Shown here: piece by piece, positions 4,794-27,396 of the stretch
Layout: every line of letters begins with the position of its first letter
Numbering within the stretch: the first letter of the stretch is position 1
NCBI RefSeq assembly: GCF_030700245.1
Contig: NZ_JAUYZI010000009.1
Coordinates: 1-64,000 of the forward strand
Direction: 5' to 3'
Length of the DNA: 64,000 bases
Source: Methylobacterium amylolyticum
GTDB taxonomy: Bacteria; Pseudomonadota; Alphaproteobacteria; Rhizobiales; Beijerinckiaceae
Translations under genes and position numbers: made by a program
Notes under the pieces: model-generated
Seen by the model: the letters and a program-made list of their open reading frames with translations, nothing else
Told to the model about the DNA's origin: nothing
Database searches by the model: none

Positions 4794-5087
4794 TCAGTAA
4801 GGCTGGCCGTAATAGGGCCGCAGGCGCAGGCGCGGCTGGGCGGCCGGGGGTGCGGCGTAGGCGGCCGCGGCCTCCGGATCGTAGGTTCGGAGGTAGGGGT
4901 CGAGGGCGGGGTCGCGGTAATTGCCGTTGTTGACCCCCGCCGAGCGGTCGTTGCCGTTCAGCGCGGCGTAGGGCGAGAGCCCGCTGCCGCTGTTGCCGCC
5001 GGCCCCGCCACCGAAGGCCAGGGCCGCGCCCGAGAGGCCGACGAGCATCGCCGCCGCCAGGGGAAGCCGTGCAGTCCGGATCGTCAT
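4794..5087 (-). CDS. Small exported hypothetical protein
   Basis: This is a 97-residue protein with a clear signal peptide (basic n-region TIRTAR, hydrophobic LPLAAAMLVGLSGAALA, cleavage near ALA-FGGG). The mature part is rich in Gly, Asn, Tyr and Pro: a GGGAGGNSGSG stretch, then DPALDPYLRTYDPEAA and a basic C-terminus. It has no cysteine and no recognised domain. It is probably a periplasmic or surface protein and is transcribed convergently to the DUF2891 gene. I do not recognise a family. Confidence 0.6.
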   Translation of the reverse strand: MTIRTARLPLAAAMLVGLSGAALAFGGGAGGNSGSGLSPYAALNGNDRSAGVNNGNYRDPALDPYLRTYDPEAAAAYAAPPAAQPRLRLRPYYGQPY

Positions 5088-5212
5088 GGTCGCCTCTCAG
5101 GTCGCTTCTGGTGTCTAACGCAGTCCATCGTCATCGAACGGCCTGTCGATCGAACGGCCAAGCGTGGCCGTAAGTTCCGTGGCCGGCAAGGTCTTGCGGG
5201 CGCCGAGCCCCG

Positions 5213-6073
5213 TCACAGCCGGCGGATCCCCGTGACCGGGCCGTAGCTGGTCGCGAGGATCCGCGCCGCCGCCTCGGCCAGCGGCTCCACCGCGACGCTC
5301 ATGTGGTGGCCGTTGGCGTGGATGAGGCGTGCGGCATCGAGCATCATCCCGACATGGCCCTTCCAGAACACGAAGTCGCCGCGTTGCAGGCCGTCGCTTT
5401 GCAGAGCGTCGTGGACCGGCGGCAGGGGCCGGCCCAGCGCCCGCTCCTGCATGTCCGCGTCGCGCGGGCAGGGCAGGCCGGCGGCGTCGAGGCAGAGCTG
5501 CACCAGCCCCGAGCAGTCGAGGCCGAGGGTGGTGCGGCCGCCCCACAGGTAGGGCGTGCCGACCATGCGCTCGGCGGTGCCGGCGTAGTCCGGCGCGGCC
5601 TCTCCGACCGGGACACAGTGGCGGGCGAACACGTAGCCGCCCGGCGTCTCCAGGTACGCCCCCGCCGCGCCGGTCACGACGAGGCGCGCGCCGAGGCTCA
5701 GATGCGCGCAGGGCGGGCGCTTCAGGTCGGGGGCCGGGTAGAGGAAGGTGCGCAGGGCCGCGACGCGGTGCGTCGGCTCGGGGCCGGCCGGCCCGAGGCT
5801 GTCGGCGGGCAGGTAGCCGACGTAGCCGTCGCGCGCGAGCTGCACGAGGACGTGGTCGCCGACCGCGTCGTAGGCGGTCACGGCGTCGCCGAGCAGCGCC
5901 TCCGTGTCGGTTCCGGACTCCGGCGACGGCGCGCGGCGCAGCGGGGCCGAGGGCACGACCACCCGGGCCGGCTCGCCCGCGACGTAGCGCTCGGCGGCGA
6001 CCACGCCGCGCAGCGCGACGTCGGCGGCGTGGGGCCGGGCGGGGGTCAGGCGCGGGTCGAGGGTCTGCGTCAT
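5213..6073 (-). CDS. SH3 / NlpC-P60 cell-wall peptidase
   Basis: This 286-residue protein has two bacterial SH3-like segments (about residues 35-155) and a C-terminal NlpC/P60 cysteine peptidase domain. The catalytic Cys is in LDCSGLVQ, a conserved His is in WKGHVGMM, and a polar third residue lies near IHANGHHM. Such enzymes cleave gamma-D-glutamyl-diaminopimelate bonds in peptidoglycan stem peptides or recycled muropeptides. No signal peptide is visible at the chosen ATG, so it may act in the cytoplasm in cell-wall recycling, as the similar dipeptidyl peptidases of alphaproteobacteria do. The gene looks intact and is probably monocistronic. Confidence 0.87.
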   Translation of the reverse strand: MTQTLDPRLTPARPHAADVALRGVVAAERYVAGEPARVVVPSAPLRRAPSPESGTDTEALLGDAVTAYDAVGDHVLVQLARDGYVGYLPADSLGPAGPEPTHRVAALRTFLYPAPDLKRPPCAHLSLGARLVVTGAAGAYLETPGGYVFARHCVPVGEAAPDYAGTAERMVGTPYLWGGRTTLGLDCSGLVQLCLDAAGLPCPRDADMQERALGRPLPPVHDALQSDGLQRGDFVFWKGHVGMMLDAARLIHANGHHMSVAVEPLAEAAARILATSYGPVTGIRRL

Positions 6074-10464: not shown

Positions 10465-10488
10465 TTCTTTCGAGACATCCGCGCCCCT

Positions 10489-10663
10489 CCCTCCCCCCTC
10501 TGCGGGGGAGGGTACCCTGCGCAGCAGGGGAGGAGAGGGGAGCGCCGTCTACGGAAGACGCGCGACGGGTGCCGCCTCCCGCATCGTCGCGCTGCCCCTC
10601 TCCCGACCCCCGCTCACGCGAGAGGCGCCCATCGGGCCACCCTCCCCCGCAGAGGGGGGAGGG
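10489..10663. repeat. 175-bp inverted-repeat element, copy A
   Basis: The ends are perfect 25-bp inverted repeats: left arm 10489-10513 (CCCTCCCCCCTCTGCGGGGG then AGGGT) and right arm 10639-10663. Each arm is itself nearly palindromic. Inner arms of the form AGGAGAGGGGAGC and CTGCCCCTCTCCCGACC pair as well. The element lies inside the moxR-bat operon between the DUF58 and DUF4381 genes. Copies B (14076-14244) and C (20847-21016) share the same design. No protein is encoded, so it is MITE- or REP-like. Confidence 0.85.
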
Positions 10664-14044: not shown

Positions 14045-15555
<1,511 letters not shown>

Positions 15556-20846: not shown

Positions 20847-21016
20847 CCCTCCCCCCTGTGCGGGGGAGGGTGGCCCGCGAAGCGGGTCGGGAGAGGGGAG
20901 CGACGGTGCCGAAGAAGGCGTTCGGCATGAGCTACGGAGACCTTGCCTGAAGCCGGGCTCCCCTCTCCCGACCCCCGCTCACGCGGGGGCCACCCTCCCC
21001 CGCACAGGGGGGAGGG
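20847..21016. repeat. 170-bp inverted-repeat element, copy C
   Basis: Left arm 20847-20871 and right arm 20992-21016 are perfect 25-bp inverted repeats. Compared with copies A and B both arms carry matched changes (CTGTGCG against CGCACAG instead of CTCTGCG against CGCAGAG), so pairing is preserved. Inner arms of the GGGTCGGGAGAGGGGAGC type are present. It lies between hemJ and the LprI-like gene in a 338-bp gap with nothing else evident beyond the downstream gene's leader. Confidence 0.87.
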
Positions 21017-21141
21017 AGACGCGGCGCGTGTGGAAGCTGCCGGTTTCGCCGGCTACGGCCGCAGGGTTCCGCGGAGCCCGCCGCCGTTAACCGTACCGCC
21101 GCGCCCGCGGAGCCACCCGTCGCCACCGCCCGTTGTCCCGC

Positions 21142-23623: not shown

Positions 23624-23905
23624 GGCGTGATCCTTCGATGGCTGGAGCCGGAAAACGAAAAAGCCGCCCGAAGCGGACGGCCCGACCGTTCCCAGCGCGC
23701 CCCTGCCTCCAAGGGTGTCTCGGGGGCGCGGGCTGCGGATACACAGTTCGACGCAGGAAAGCAATTTCCCCTCCGTCGCATGGATCGAAGCCCATTTGCA
23801 CCGGTTCGCCGGATGATGGATGAACGCTGGAGCGGCCGTGTCAAATTTGGCGCGCTTCCCCTGGTTGATATTGTTGGTATGATGCTACCCCAGCGATCAG
23901 TGAGG
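23624..23905. other. rplY upstream region and left edge of A/T-rich island
   Basis: The first 200 bases have native composition and should contain the rplY promoter, but I cannot assign -35/-10 boxes with confidence. From about 23835 the composition shifts to A/T-rich (GGTTGATATTGTTGGTATGA), which marks the likely left edge of the island and may carry a promoter reading into the next gene. Confidence 0.4.
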
Positions 23906-23921
23906 AATAACTAGGAATTAT
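23906..23921 (+). repeat. Left 16-bp inverted repeat of the cassette
   Basis: AATAACTAGGAATTAT is the exact reverse complement of 25629-25644. The repeat contains the AGGA ribosome-binding site for the GNAT-like gene starting at 23926, and its partner plays the same role for the opposing methyltransferase gene. Confidence 0.85.
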
Positions 23922-23925
23922 TCGC

Positions 23926-24930
23926 TTGAAGGTTCGTTTCGAACTCTTGGATTTAGATTCCCTCGTCGCGAAAGGAGGCGATTTCGAGCGCGCATTGACG
24001 TGCTATGTGCGATCAACCGCCGCATCTGAGCGAACAGACACGCGCGAGATAGCTTATTGGCGGGAAATCCCGGTTGCTGACAGAGAGGGTATTAGATATT
24101 TTGCTTTTAAGATAAATGGAGATATAGTTGGTTATGCTCAATATAGATATGTATTGTCTTCAAAGATAGCCATACTTGATTATTTATGTATTGATCCTCA
24201 GCAAGAAAGCAACGCGGCTTACTTTTCCTTCATAGAGTTGTTTTGCAACATAATCGAGGTCTCTCATGTTGTATCGTATATTACGACAGAGATAAATTTT
24301 AATATTGACAGTGAAACTAAAGATGAAGCAAATAGATACTGGCTGAGGGTTTTGGAACTTTCGGGCTTTAAAGTTGCGCAAACAAAATACTTGCTTCCGT
24401 CCCTATCCATAGAAGCACCCTTGGAAAATCGGCTGGGCGTTCTCATGATACGCTCGAACGAGAAAAGTCCACAAATGTCAAATCAAACCTATATTAATAT
24501 TGTTCATAGCATGTATTTTTGTCATTATATTCCATGGTACAAGCCATTCAAGAAGGACTTAAGCGCATATCAGTCCGTCTTAAAGAAGGAGTTAGATCGA
24601 GTTTCCTCATCTGTCAAAAAATCAAACTTTGTGAAATTAAATGGATCTCTCAAGCATTCCGGTCTTGTAGCAACGGAACAAATCGAGCCATCACTCACTG
24701 GGAAGGCTATATATGCTCTGGTTCTATTTGGATTGTTTTTCATACTGATTGTTTCTGCTAGCATTGCAATACTATCTGTTTACTTTGGACTTGGATCATA
24801 TGCATCCATATTGATATTTCTCGTGTCTCTTATTATATTTGCTGGATTAATCACATTATTTATGCCTAGCCGGGCAGAGACATTGAAGAGTCTCACGAGA
24901 CCGATTTGGAAGTTGTTCTCCGGGCTATGA
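23926..24930 (+). CDS. GNAT-like protein with C-terminal membrane anchor
   Basis: This 334-residue protein comes from markedly A/T-rich DNA unlike its neighbours. Residues 1-165 resemble a GNAT acyltransferase fold (YFAFKINGDIVGYAQYRY, AILDYLCIDPQQES, then LSGFKVAQTKYLLP), without a confident acetyl-CoA loop. Residues about 250-315 hold two or three membrane helices (YALVLFGLFFILIVSAS, ILIFLVSLIIFAGLIT). The start is TTG at 23926 with AGGA nine bases upstream inside the 16-bp repeat. Its last 38 bases overlap the convergent methyltransferase gene. The function is unknown; horizontal acquisition is likely. Confidence 0.65.
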   Translation: MKVRFELLDLDSLVAKGGDFERALTCYVRSTAASERTDTREIAYWREIPVADREGIRYFAFKINGDIVGYAQYRYVLSSKIAILDYLCIDPQQESNAAYFSFIELFCNIIEVSHVVSYITTEINFNIDSETKDEANRYWLRVLELSGFKVAQTKYLLPSLSIEAPLENRLGVLMIRSNEKSPQMSNQTYINIVHSMYFCHYIPWYKPFKKDLSAYQSVLKKELDRVSSSVKKSNFVKLNGSLKHSGLVATEQIEPSLTGKAIYALVLFGLFFILIVSASIAILSVYFGLGSYASILIFLVSLIIFAGLITLFMPSRAETLKSLTRPIWKLFSGL

Positions 24931-25630
24931 TGAAGACGTTTGATGATCTATTTCTGAGAACTGGTATATTGCAAAATATTTGATCAATACCACAGGAAAT
25001 AGATGTGGCAACATTGCTCTCCGTCAAGCGCCAAATCAGCGATGAAAGTGTATGTATGTTGATGACATCGACTATATCAAAACCAGCAGCGTTCAAAAGT
25101 GCTTTCACATGATTCAATGAAAATACCCAGATTGTTTCATCAAGGTCGTTGAAGTCAGTCAGAAATAAATAGGAAGATTTTCCATATATTTCGGTTCCAT
25201 AATGCTCATAAGCGGCCGACTGCTCAAAATCGAATAAAAAATATCCTTTTTCTTCTATGACTCGAGAAACTTCAATAAACAATTCGGTCGGCGCACAGTA
25301 GTTTAAGACGGAACCAATTGCAATTATAGATCGAAATGATCTACTACTAAAGGGCATACGGTGCCCGTCCCCGCATACGGCATGTTGATCACGTGGCAGG
25401 GACTTCTCGGCTACGTCAAGATACACCATATCCAAATTTGAAATATTGTAGTTCTCGCTCGCGCTTCCTAAATTTAATATACGTCCACCGCATAGCAGTT
25501 CTTCTCTTGCTTTCAGAATCCGCCTGTAGTTTTTGTGTAAGTGGAAATGCCAATAATCAGCAGCATTCCAAATTTGCAGTTTATGGTTGTACTTGTTTCT
25601 GACCTCTCTGAGGGGAATTCTCTCAAACAT
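24893..25630 (-). CDS. Class I SAM-dependent methyltransferase (foreign composition)
   Basis: This 245-residue protein has a methyltransferase-11-like core: ILNLGSASENYN (motif I, less glycine-rich than usual), VYLDVAEKSLPRD, CGDGHRMPFSSRSFRSIIAI, LNYCAPTELFIEVSRVIEEK and GYFLFDFEQSA. The ATG at 25630 is preceded by AGGAATT within the 16-bp repeat. It lies 34 bases downstream of the recombinase gene on the same strand, and its 3' end overlaps the convergent GNAT-like gene. The substrate is unknown. A/T-rich codon use points to transfer. Confidence 0.75.
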   Translation of the reverse strand: MFERIPLREVRNKYNHKLQIWNAADYWHFHLHKNYRRILKAREELLCGGRILNLGSASENYNISNLDMVYLDVAEKSLPRDQHAVCGDGHRMPFSSRSFRSIIAIGSVLNYCAPTELFIEVSRVIEEKGYFLFDFEQSAAYEHYGTEIYGKSSYLFLTDFNDLDETIWVFSLNHVKALLNAAGFDIVDVINIHTLSSLIWRLTESNVATSISCGIDQIFCNIPVLRNRSSNVFIIARRTTSKSVS

Positions 25631-25644
25631 AATTCCTAGTTATT
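25629..25644 (-). repeat. Right 16-bp inverted repeat of the cassette
   Basis: ATAATTCCTAGTTATT is the perfect reverse complement of 23906-23921. It overlaps the first two bases of the methyltransferase start codon (minus strand) and supplies its AGGA ribosome-binding site. The two copies enclose a 1.7-kb segment next to a tyrosine recombinase. Confidence 0.85.
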
Positions 25645-25664
25645 GTTGCGAGCGAAAATCCAAC

Positions 25665-26567
25665 CTAATTGTTGAAGTGATTGTGTAATCGCTCAAAAAC
25701 GCTCGCAGTCTGAATTGCTCCTCGCAGCGCCCGGTCACTCACATGCGTGTAAAGCTGAGTTGTGGAAATACTGCGGTGACCTAGCAAGCGCTGCACGAAT
25801 CGGATGTCGACACCAGCTTCGAGAAGTTCCGTCGCTGCCGTGTGACGCAGCATGTGAGGCGTTACTGGGCGCGAAAGACCAGCCGAGCGTGCCAAACGTT
25901 TGATCCGCAATCGGATGCCGGCTGAACTCACAGGACGATTGAAAGGGTCTCGAAGCAGGCGCACGCTACCGCCATTGCCGTCGACGTGATGGATCCGAAC
26001 ATAGTCGCGTACGAGGCTCGCCACCTTTTCGTCCGGCACGAAAACTTGCCGTTGGCGATCACCTTTGCCGACGATGCGGATGCTACCGCTTTCGAGATCG
26101 ATATCGGAGACGCGAATAGCTGCTAATTCGCTCACGCGAACACCAGTGGCGAACAAGAGGGTGGTGGCGAGGCGCGTCAGTGGCGGAGCGGCCTCGGCAG
26201 CGCGCGCCAGGGTGGCCATCTCGCCAGTCGCAAGACAGCGCGGCAGCCGGTCTGGCACCCGGACACGAATCTCTACCATGGCGAAGGGATTGACCCCGAT
26301 CACCCGACGACGGACGAGCCAGCCGAACATTGAGCGCGCGCAAGCGAGGCGCCGCTTGACCGTGGCAGGGGCGAGCTTGCGCGCTGTCGACAGGTGCGCG
26401 GCATAAGCAACCAGCCGGGTGCCCGTTACGTCCGCGACCGCGACCGATCCGAGATTCCCGACCAGCTCGGCGATGTCTTGTCTGTACGCAGTTAAGGTGT
26501 TGGGCGAGAGATGTCGTTCGACCCGACAATGCTCCAGGAAACTTGCACCTGCCTCGTCTAGAATCAT
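25665..26567 (-). CDS. XerC/D-like tyrosine recombinase
   Basis: This 300-residue tyrosine recombinase has an N-terminal SAM-like core-binding domain (HLSPNTLTAYRQDIAELV) and a C-terminal catalytic domain with the full set Arg144 (GVRVSEL), Lys168 (GKGDRQR), His238 and Arg241 (HMLRHTAAT), His264 (LLGHRSI) and Tyr273 (QLYTHV). The ATG at 26567 gives the normal XerC-like length. It has no phage neighbours. Its position beside inverted repeats enclosing two convergent genes suggests it inverts or mobilises that cassette. Confidence 0.9.
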   Translation of the reverse strand: MILDEAGASFLEHCRVERHLSPNTLTAYRQDIAELVGNLGSVAVADVTGTRLVAYAAHLSTARKLAPATVKRRLACARSMFGWLVRRRVIGVNPFAMVEIRVRVPDRLPRCLATGEMATLARAAEAAPPLTRLATTLLFATGVRVSELAAIRVSDIDLESGSIRIVGKGDRQRQVFVPDEKVASLVRDYVRIHHVDGNGGSVRLLRDPFNRPVSSAGIRLRIKRLARSAGLSRPVTPHMLRHTAATELLEAGVDIRFVQRLLGHRSISTTQLYTHVSDRALRGAIQTASVFERLHNHFNN

Positions 26568-26685
26568 GACCCGCACCCCGCTCCGCGATGGAAGGGGCGG
26601 ACCTAGCCGCGAGGTGATGGTAAACGGTTTAAGGTCGAGCTGCCGGCCAAATCGGGCTGGCAGAGGATCCGCGGGCGTCGCCGAC

Positions 26686-27396
26686 GTGAAGAACCCGAAG
26701 ACCATCTTCGTGCTGACCGGGGCGGGCGTCTCGGCCGAGAGCGGGCTCGGCACGTTTCGCGACCGCGGCGGCCTGTGGGCGCGGTTCGACCCGATGAAGC
26801 TCGCCACGCCCGAGGCCTACGCGGCCGACCCCGACACGGTGCTCGACTTCTACAACCATCGCCGCCGGGGCGTGGTGGCGGCCGTCCCCAACGCCGCGCA
26901 CGCGGCGCTGGCCCGGGCGGAGACGCGCCTGGCCGAGCGGGGCGGGCGCCTGTTCCTGTGCACGCAGAACGTCGACGACCTGCACGAGCGGGCGGGTGCG
27001 CGGGCGGTGACCCACATGCACGGCGAGCTGCTCAAGGCCCGCTGCACCGCCTGCGAGGCGGTCACGCCCTGGCACGGCGACCTGACCCGGGCCGACGCCT
27101 GCCCGGCCTGCGGGGCGGCGGGACGGATGCGCCCGGACGTGGTCTGGTTCGGCGAGATGCCCAAGCACCTCGACGCGATCGAGCGGGCGCTGACGGCGGC
27201 CGACCTGTTCGTGGCGGTCGGCACCTCGGGGGCGGTCTACCCGGCGGCGGGCTACGTCCGCCTCGCGAAAGCGCGCGGCATCCCGACCTGCGAGGTCAAC
27301 CTGGAGCCCTCCGACAACGCGGACGCCTTCGACACGGCGGAGTACGGACCGGCCAGCGTGGCGCTGCCGGCCTACCTCGCCAGGCTCGGCCTGTAG
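26686..27396 (+). CDS. cobB: NAD-dependent protein deacylase, class III sirtuin (CobB-like)
   Basis: This 236-residue sirtuin has NAD-binding TGAGVSAESGLGTFRD, TQNVDDLHERAG, catalytic His112 (THMHGE), zinc cysteines 120, 123, 139 and 142, and VGTSGAVYPAAG. Tyr56 and Arg59 in FYNHRRR match the class III (SIRT5-like) Y-x-x-R pair, implying desuccinylase as well as deacetylase activity. It probably reverses lysine acylation, for example on acetyl-CoA synthetase. I chose the GTG at 26686; an in-frame ATG at 26617 would add 23 poorly conserved residues. Confidence 0.9.
   Translation: MKNPKTIFVLTGAGVSAESGLGTFRDRGGLWARFDPMKLATPEAYAADPDTVLDFYNHRRRGVVAAVPNAAHAALARAETRLAERGGRLFLCTQNVDDLHERAGARAVTHMHGELLKARCTACEAVTPWHGDLTRADACPACGAAGRMRPDVVWFGEMPKHLDAIERALTAADLFVAVGTSGAVYPAAGYVRLAKARGIPTCEVNLEPSDNADAFDTAEYGPASVALPAYLARLGL

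Follow-up and report, generated by a model that had tools for sequence, protein, structure and literature searches.

In the G segment of phage Mu and similar invertible gene segments, as these are generally understood, an invertible segment holds two opposed gene sets, a recombinase gene lies just outside, and fixed outside sequence reads into one set at a time. The Mu recombinase, Gin, is a serine recombinase, and the Mu sets are alternative tail-fibre genes. The shufflon with Rci, the fim switch with FimB/FimE and the hsdS inversions with PsrA appear instead to use a tyrosine recombinase and short inverted sites to generate population heterogeneity, but to invert promoters or parts of genes. 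In the PinQ/e14 system, inversion of a 1797-bp P segment changes a phage-related phenotype (PMC12529663); this is the work of a serine recombinase in a cryptic prophage, and the inversion makes a new protein from two chimeric genes.

Here we analyze a 64,000-nucleotide stretch of the Methylobacterium amylolyticum genome (assembly GCF_030700245.1, contig NZ_JAUYZI010000009.1, positions 1 to 64,000; hereafter the window), in which two opposed genes lie between perfect inverted repeats beside a tyrosine recombinase gene. As in the Mu G segment, two opposed units lie within inverted sites with the recombinase next to them; however, the enzyme is a tyrosine recombinase, the two genes are unrelated, and the cassette is swapped between hosts. 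In contrast to the shufflon, for which more than two sites are expected, only two sites are found in the window and in the genome at the mismatch limits used, and whole unrelated genes would trade places. We found no description of this system in literature searches that lacked most subscription papers and all bioRxiv preprints (papers consulted include PMC5903667, PMC7159879 and PMC8138268), and a search with the 15-base site itself returned 0 papers.

Organization of the cassette in Methylobacterium

The repeats (AATAACTAGGAATTAT) are located at 23906-23921 (+) and 25629-25644 (-), without mismatch. They are the only matches in the window at up to 3 mismatches (shuffle mean 0.01; 0 of 100 shuffles had 2) and the only matches in the 6.57-Mb genome at up to 2 mismatches. 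The core conserved in relatives is one base shorter than the 16-bp repeat given in the first-pass annotation: it is the 15-bp sequence ATAACTAGGAATTAT, at 23907-23921 (+) for the distal site and, as an inverted copy, at 25629-25643 (-) for the proximal site.

The recombinase-distal gene (23926-24930, +; 334 aa) starts with TTG 19 bases after the site core starts, and encodes a GNAT-like protein with two C-terminal hydrophobic helices. Its Pfam match to GNAT is below cut-off, but the predicted structure (mean pLDDT 76.6) matches GNAT structures (best E 2.2e-6). The recombinase-proximal gene (24893-25630, -; 245 aa) encodes a SAM-dependent methyltransferase, for which Methyltransf_11 passes its cut-off. 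The two genes are convergent, with a 38-bp overlap at their 3' ends. The right repeat overlaps the methyltransferase ATG (25628-25630) by two bases, and the AGGA of each repeat lies just before each start. Paired homologues of both genes are found in two other loci, L037 and L072; by eye, homologues of the GNAT-fold gene are also paired in two Pseudoalteromonas loci, L290 and L293, discussed below.

The recombinase gene (25665-26567, -; 300 aa from the ATG at 26567) reads toward the cassette, and its stop codon lies 20 bp from the right repeat, not 34 bp as first annotated. The protein carries a Phage_integrase domain (PF00589, 136.1 bits, cut-off 27.1), and residues that would fit the catalytic R, K, HxxR, H and Y are visible in its sequence. 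Although Xer-related, it scores below the XerC (TIGR02224, 217 of 335.15 bits) and XerD (TIGR02225, 199.1 of 329.6) cut-offs and lies outside the clade of 10 presumed housekeeping Xer rows in our tree (support 100/98). The site shares what appear to be the ATAA...TTAT inner arms of dif, but has a 7-bp spacer rather than the 6 bp usually ascribed to dif, and the proposed outcome is inversion rather than dimer resolution. The recombinase is also below the cut-offs of the integron integrase model (integrase_gron, 136.4 of 265 bits) and of both tyrosine-type DNA invertase models that it matched (NF007370, 63.5 of 221; NF007371, 49.7 of 222 bits). Integrons likewise combine a resident tyrosine recombinase with exchangeable cargo at its own site, but here no array was seen, and the cassette is bounded by two inverted sites and holds two opposed units.

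Recurrence of the site in relatives of the recombinase

To determine whether this arrangement is unique, we examined relatives of the recombinase. In six phyla, they sit beside inverted copies of a near-identical site (ATAA-N7-TTAT, commonest ATAACTAGGAATTAT) that enclose two convergent transcription units starting at the sites. The core lies at the 3' end of the recombinase gene or just before its 5' end, with an inverted copy 1.6-6.9 kb away. Exact inverted pairs with a 7-bp spacer were found in 27 locus records among about 250 loci (some records repeat one place), while the same search found none with spacers of 6 or 8. Because this search required exact identity and the ATAA/TTAT ends, the invariance of these ends and the identity within a locus are partly by construction; two loci with mismatches, L044 and L070, were added by hand. 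Five loci with a site at the recombinase's 3' end (L038, L046, L050, L058 and L077) had no second site detected in the stretch examined.

The conserved site could in principle be a shared translation-start sequence with no recombination. The commonest core contains AGGA, and the start codon begins 13 bases into the site in 24 of 49 listed gene ends. However, we consider this very unlikely: the core is shared within a locus and varies between loci (subject to the search requirement above), the inverted ATAA...TTAT dyad is not needed for ribosome binding, and the reading is contradicted by the opposite orientations of one cassette in related genomes, described below.

In a viral sequence collection, 8 stretches carried the exact 16-base pattern; tblastn found no recombinase of this family in the available sequence of these 8 loci, two of which are only about 2 kb, so most are probably chance. 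A phage collection gave 36 records, among them ones 29-38% identical, three of which are annotated XerC or XerD.

Comparative evidence for inversion

The first-pass annotation proposed a recombinase-driven invertible cassette that swaps which of the two genes sits behind the recombinase. Comparison of relatives supports inversion in three ways. First, two related, near-complete Pseudoalteromonas chromosomes (loci L290 and L293) carry one methyltransferase/GNAT cassette in opposite orientations (99.3% over 543 bp). Second, ATP-grasp/NTPase cassettes occur both ways round (L177 against L053; the YbaK-like genes of the two loci were matched by eye). Third, in 10 draft genomes the assembly breaks into both flanks and a free cassette, all ending at or within about 106 bases of the sites. 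In the 8 of these with both flanks compared, other than genome G389, the cassette contig reaches outward just as many bases as the two flanks share (1-9; one end of G388 is 3 short), while in G389 both cassette ends carry the 33 bases of the recombinase flank, that is, both junctions.

Draft assemblies break at many repeats, and the breaks might therefore reflect assembly difficulty rather than a mixed population. Indeed, in G393 and G396 the two flank contigs run about 90-100 bases into opposite ends of the cassette, as one fixed orientation would also give. However, from the site start only 15-22 bases are common to the two cassette ends, plus 0-9 outside bases common to the two flanks apart from G389, a total length probably below that of common assembly k-mers, and the agreement between cassette ends and flanks is what a mixture predicts. 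We regard an assembly artefact as very unlikely. The 15 genomes first examined for breaks were chosen largely because their contigs ended near the site, so they show the pattern and not its frequency. A Pseudoalteromonas set was not chosen in this way, and 9 of its 14 recombinase contigs are broken at the sites; the five unbroken cases lie in contigs of 1.97-4.25 Mb, and one of them (genome G898, locus L295) shows no site of this form.

Together, these observations lead us to propose, with good confidence although from comparison of assemblies and without reads or experiments, that the module is a site-specific inversion switch, in which the Xer-related recombinase recombines the two inverted dif-like sites and flips the 1.7-kb segment between them; that this recombinase acts on these sites is inferred. 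Each site also serves as a translation start region, carrying a Shine-Dalgarno-like AGGA and reaching the start codon of the gene behind it, and in many relatives it contains the recombinase's own stop codon. Whichever gene lies next to the recombinase would therefore be read with it, while the other faces arbitrary chromosomal context; that only the proximal gene is expressed is an inference. At the distal side, 13 of 22 loci with a called neighbour (mechanical ORFs) have one that reads toward the cassette, so the distal gene need not be silent. A consistent promoter-bearing neighbour was looked for there and not found; in the window the ORF called at this position is spurious, and the real neighbour, rplY, reads away. 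No promoter stood out in the window (5 found, shuffle mean 3.6).

Inversion in this strain remains an inference: its contig is unbroken across the cassette, so one orientation may dominate or the element may be inactive here. A form locked with the methyltransferase behind the recombinase, which could hold together with a switch in the family as a whole, is possible but doubtful. Locked or decayed copies exist (L293 has lost part of its cassette, and L295 keeps a recombinase without a site of this form), but here the recombinase, both sites and both genes are intact. Resolved loci are strongly biased (22 of 26 enzyme-proximal, 3 partner-proximal, 1 unclassified), which a free 50:50 switch would not give.

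Cargo exchange and possible roles

The first-pass annotation did not recognize that site, geometry and recombinase recur in at least six phyla with exchangeable cargo. Exchange is illustrated by L290 and L292: their recombinases are 315/317 identical (excluding the stop codon) and their flanks are 96% and 94% identical up to the sites, at the same locus, yet they carry different cassettes. Because L290 and L292 differ in spacer as well as cargo, this exchange may have been homologous recombination in the flanks. More generally, cargo type shows no clustering on the recombinase tree (21 changes, shuffled mean 19.6). Labels first assigned partly by eye gave 20 changes against a shuffled mean of 20.0; after Pfam checks, L302 and L065 were moved to the ATP-grasp group and L039 to 'other', because its gene (L157) had no Pfam family at E 0.01. 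In both tests 23 of 60 tree rows carried no cargo label, and L290 and L293 count as two methyltransferase/GNAT rows though their recombinases are near-identical.

These results raise the alternative that the repeats are mainly the ends of a mobile cassette that the recombinase moves between genomes, with inversion as a side product. Cassette replacement exactly at the sites, the uncoupling of cargo from recombinase, and the foreign composition of the cassettes are consistent with this view. However, the recombinase lies outside the repeats in the 25 loci examined for this, and the opposite orientations and broken assemblies are signs of inversion. We therefore consider this alternative unlikely, although free cassettes without a neighbouring recombinase were not sought systematically. 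The position of the recombinase outside the repeats also led us to reject a transposon with terminal repeats as the main reading.

Usually one side of the cassette is an enzyme and the other a STAND-type NTPase or membrane protein. The STAND-type identity of the partner was examined with Pfam in L035, L044, L036, L070, L054, L357, L297, L146, L154, L159, L345, L351 and L347; many of these matches are below cut-off and L347 gave only TPR-S, while in other loci the assignment rests on length and a P-loop seen by eye. Some of these NTPases carry SIR2 or restriction-nuclease domains, a class probably linked to bacterial immunity. Neither window gene matched PADLOC anti-phage defence models at E up to 0.01, and of 8 other cargo proteins compared, only the NTPases of L035 and L044 matched, weakly. 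We infer that the switch yields a mixed population of enzyme cells and sensor/effector or membrane-protein cells, probably in conflict with phages or competitors. If this is right, pairs of poorly annotated genes in many bacteria belong to one switch system that can be recognized by a 15-bp site and predicted to be mutually exclusive in expression, giving a genetic handle on an unrecognized form of population heterogeneity; the recombinase and its compact sites could also serve as a broad-host tool for cassette exchange. A more speculative possibility, which we offer tentatively, is a new class of mobile genetic platform that combines natural recombinase-mediated cassette exchange with inversion. 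One Xer-type recombinase family and one site design would then be a common dock across phyla for two-state cassettes, each pairing a small-molecule-modifying enzyme with a STAND/NLR-like or membrane partner that must not be made in the same cell, so that a clonal population splits into producer and responder (or sentinel) cells, probably in phage defence or in kin and competitor conflict.

In the window, GC is about 0.40 in the cassette, 0.58-0.70 in the recombinase and mostly 0.66-0.78 in the chromosome around. The acquired module extends approximately from 23745 to 26693, and four relatives have 7.5-8.2 kb of other genes here, between rplY and the Sir2-like gene (both named by eye).

Features and context of the inserted module

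We first examined the inverted repeats at 23906-23921 and 25629-25644, whose coordinates in the first-pass annotation proved to be right. The 16-bp repeats are perfect and inverted, and they are the only matches in the window at up to 3 mismatches and in the 6.57-Mb genome at up to 2. Between them lie two intact convergent genes with a 38-bp 3' overlap, encoding a 334-aa GNAT-fold protein with two C-terminal hydrophobic helices (TTG start) and a 245-aa SAM methyltransferase. The GNAT fold is supported by a predicted structure (mean pLDDT 76.6, three sequences in the alignment) whose best solved matches are GNAT acetyltransferases (E 2.2e-6), while Pfam alone is below cut-off. A 300-aa Xer-related tyrosine recombinase ends 20 bp outside the right repeat and reads toward it. 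GC falls from about 0.7 in the chromosome to 0.4 in the cassette, with the recombinase between.

To place the module in its genomic context, we compared the region with that of other genomes. In 15 other genus genomes the rplY region aligns with the window only up to 23745, and in the four relatives whose stretch reached the Sir2-like gene (loci L303-L306), 7.5-8.2 kb of other genes lie between the two, where the window has about 2.95 kb of module (23745-26693). The module is an insert. The GNAT-like gene was found in 1 of 298 genomes of the family, the window's own. Among 111 genus genomes the recombinase has one close relative, in genome G043 (64% identical); that relative is plasmid pMRAD01 of Methylobacterium radiotolerans. 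A remnant was observed in the Methylobacterium bullatum plasmid record NZ_LR743510 (locus L178), where positions 5001-5312 of the locus hold a fragment of the recombinase (residues 1-104, 61.5% identical) without a recognisable site. Elsewhere in the window, stretches of about 60-180 bp at 10480-10614, 14076-14254 and 20847-21025 all match one place in L304, indicating an interspersed repeat.

A shared site and geometry among relatives

A scan of one genome for each of 84,980 species kept 80 relatives of the recombinase. In many, the core ATAACTAGGAATTAT or a variant lies at the recombinase's stop codon, often containing it, with an inverted copy further on. To analyze the site more quantitatively, we searched the about 250 loci then collected for exact inverted pairs of ATAA-N(6-8)-TTAT; this search found 27 records (some repeating one place), all with a 7-bp spacer and none with 6 or 8. 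In 25 loci, 14 different spacers occur, the commonest being CTAGGAA, in 11. The cassettes are 1.7-6.9 kb and hold two convergent transcription units of one to three genes. The commonest start codon position is 13 bases into the site, so that the ATG overlaps its end (24 of 49 gene ends). In 7 of the 25 loci (L065, L069, L070, L072, L080, L101 and L357) the recombinase is divergent from the cassette.

Pairs occur in Pseudomonadota, Actinomycetota, Acidobacteriota, Planctomycetota (L070, with mismatches), Bacteroidota (a metagenome bin) and Campylobacterota. The system is sparse: the exact 16-base form GATAACTAGGAATTAT occurs in 2 of 398 genomes sampled across the phylum, and as a pair in one of them; the window's own site has A in the first place and is not counted there. 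In the viral collection, one contig (IMG/VR 3300002334_000366, locus L174) starts at a site, at position 2-16, and contig 000367 of the same sample (L179) encodes a related recombinase.

The topology of the module appears to equal that of phage Mu's G segment, but with a tyrosine recombinase that fails the NCBIfam cut-offs for XerC, XerD, integron integrase and the DNA invertases it matched, with unrelated alternative products, and with exchangeable cargo. Literature searches, one of them made with the site sequence, showed no account of it. We regard the module as departing from the Mu arrangement in these respects, with a real chance that it is a kind of its own.

Signs of inversion in relatives

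If both orientations are present, an assembler should give two flank contigs ending at the site and one free cassette contig. We found this pattern in genomes G386, G388, G389, G390, G393 and G396 (6 of 15 genomes, chosen largely because a contig ended there) and in G794, G803, G816 and G884 (4 of 13, five of the 13 being the unbroken ones). Cassette contigs begin and end within 33 bases of the sites. The pattern is incomplete in other genomes: G843 and G821 show a recombinase contig and cassette but no second flank by exact pattern, G385 shows two flanks and no cassette contig, and G839 shows no exact site. G391 is irregular, with more than two sites (ATAACTAGG and ATAATTAGG forms) on several contigs (L158-L160, L358), possibly a larger, multi-site arrangement. 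In G386, G388 and G390 the flank contigs end within two bases of the core, while in G393 and G396 they run about 90-100 bases into opposite ends of the cassette, which one orientation would also give.

A comparison of cassette ends with flanks provided a sharper test. In G386, G388, G390, G393, G396, G794, G803 and G884 the cassette contig reaches outward just as many bases as its two flanks have in common (1, 3, 4, 6 or 9; one end of G388 is 3 short), as expected if each end was read next to both flanks. In G389, both ends carry the same 33 bases of the recombinase flank and not the other flank, so both junctions with the recombinase were assembled. For frequency, Pseudoalteromonas is the fairer sample: 14 of 108 genomes carry the recombinase at E up to 1e-50, and in 9 of these 14 its contig ends within 130 bases, at the site, while the other five lie in contigs of 1.97-4.25 Mb, one of them without a recognisable site.

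A second sign is the occurrence of one cassette in opposite orientations. Genome G837 (locus L290) has the cargo type of the window, with the methyltransferase proximal to the recombinase and the GNAT-like gene distal; the methyltransferase is split into two overlapping ORFs (106 and 138 aa), so one half of the switch looks broken there. In contrast, G865 (L293), with a recombinase 306/317 identical, has the GNAT-like gene proximal, 99.3% identical over 543 bp in inverted orientation. After inversion the far part of this cassette and some neighbouring DNA are missing, leaving a single site, a locked state. Third, one cargo type is found in both orientations further apart: the ATP-grasp with a YbaK-like gene is proximal in the Colwellia locus L053 (the YbaK match being by eye), while the NTPase is proximal in the Aliarcobacter plasmid L177. 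Inversion is shown by comparison in relatives, and switching in the window's own strain is inferred.

Cargo exchange and possible function

In G868 (L292), the recombinase is 315/317 identical to that of G837, and the flanks are 96% and 94% identical right up to the sites, but the cassette is a different one (243 aa without a family; 550 aa with CHAT and EamA domains) with a different spacer. Comparison shows cassette replacement, but because the spacer changed too, this may have been homologous recombination in the flanks. The window's nearest recombinase relative carries an ATP-grasp/NTPase cassette, while the methyltransferase/GNAT pair recurs in loci L037 and L072 (22-29% identity to the window) and, by eye, in L290. 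The recombinase tree groups by host lineage in part (Actinomycetota, Burkholderiales, Acidobacteriota, Sphingomonas), with exceptions such as a Bacteroidota bin among Gammaproteobacteria; the 10 presumed housekeeping Xer rows form a separate clade (100/98), and the place of L177 is unsure. Cargo type shows no clustering on this tree, with 21 changes against a shuffled mean of 19.6 (23 of 60 rows unlabelled).

The best reading of the mechanism is a recombinase-proximal expression site, with the recombination site doubling as translation start, and inversion deciding which gene is joined to it. In this reading the action of this recombinase on these sites and mutually exclusive expression are inferred. 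Of 26 resolved loci (the 25 above plus L293), the enzyme is proximal in 22 and the partner in 3 (L177, L293, L357), and L292 is unclassified. This bias indicates that the two states are not equally common, or that the enzyme state is favoured in the material sequenced.

The cargo itself suggests a possible function. One side is usually a small-molecule or sugar/lipid enzyme: Ddl-like ATP-grasp (Pfam match in 15 cassettes), SHMT-like PLP enzymes, glycosyltransferases, methyltransferases, aminotransferases, a sulfotransferase, a carbamoyltransferase, a PLP decarboxylase, PAP2, CMAS and an FAD enzyme. The other is often a large AAA/NACHT-TPR (STAND-type) NTPase, some with SIR2 (L154, L357) or Mrr-type nuclease (L044) domains, or a membrane protein or a protein without a family. 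In the window, the methyltransferase holds the enzyme position and the GNAT/membrane protein the partner position. Because STAND proteins with such effector domains probably act in bacterial immunity, we favour a role in conflict as a hypothesis, although PADLOC does not recognise the window's genes. One cargo type appears in two phyla: the cassettes of L146 (Actinomycetota) and L352 (Pseudoalteromonas) both pair a 417-aa SHMT-like enzyme with a protein of about 800 aa, an NTPase by Pfam in L146 and by eye in L352.
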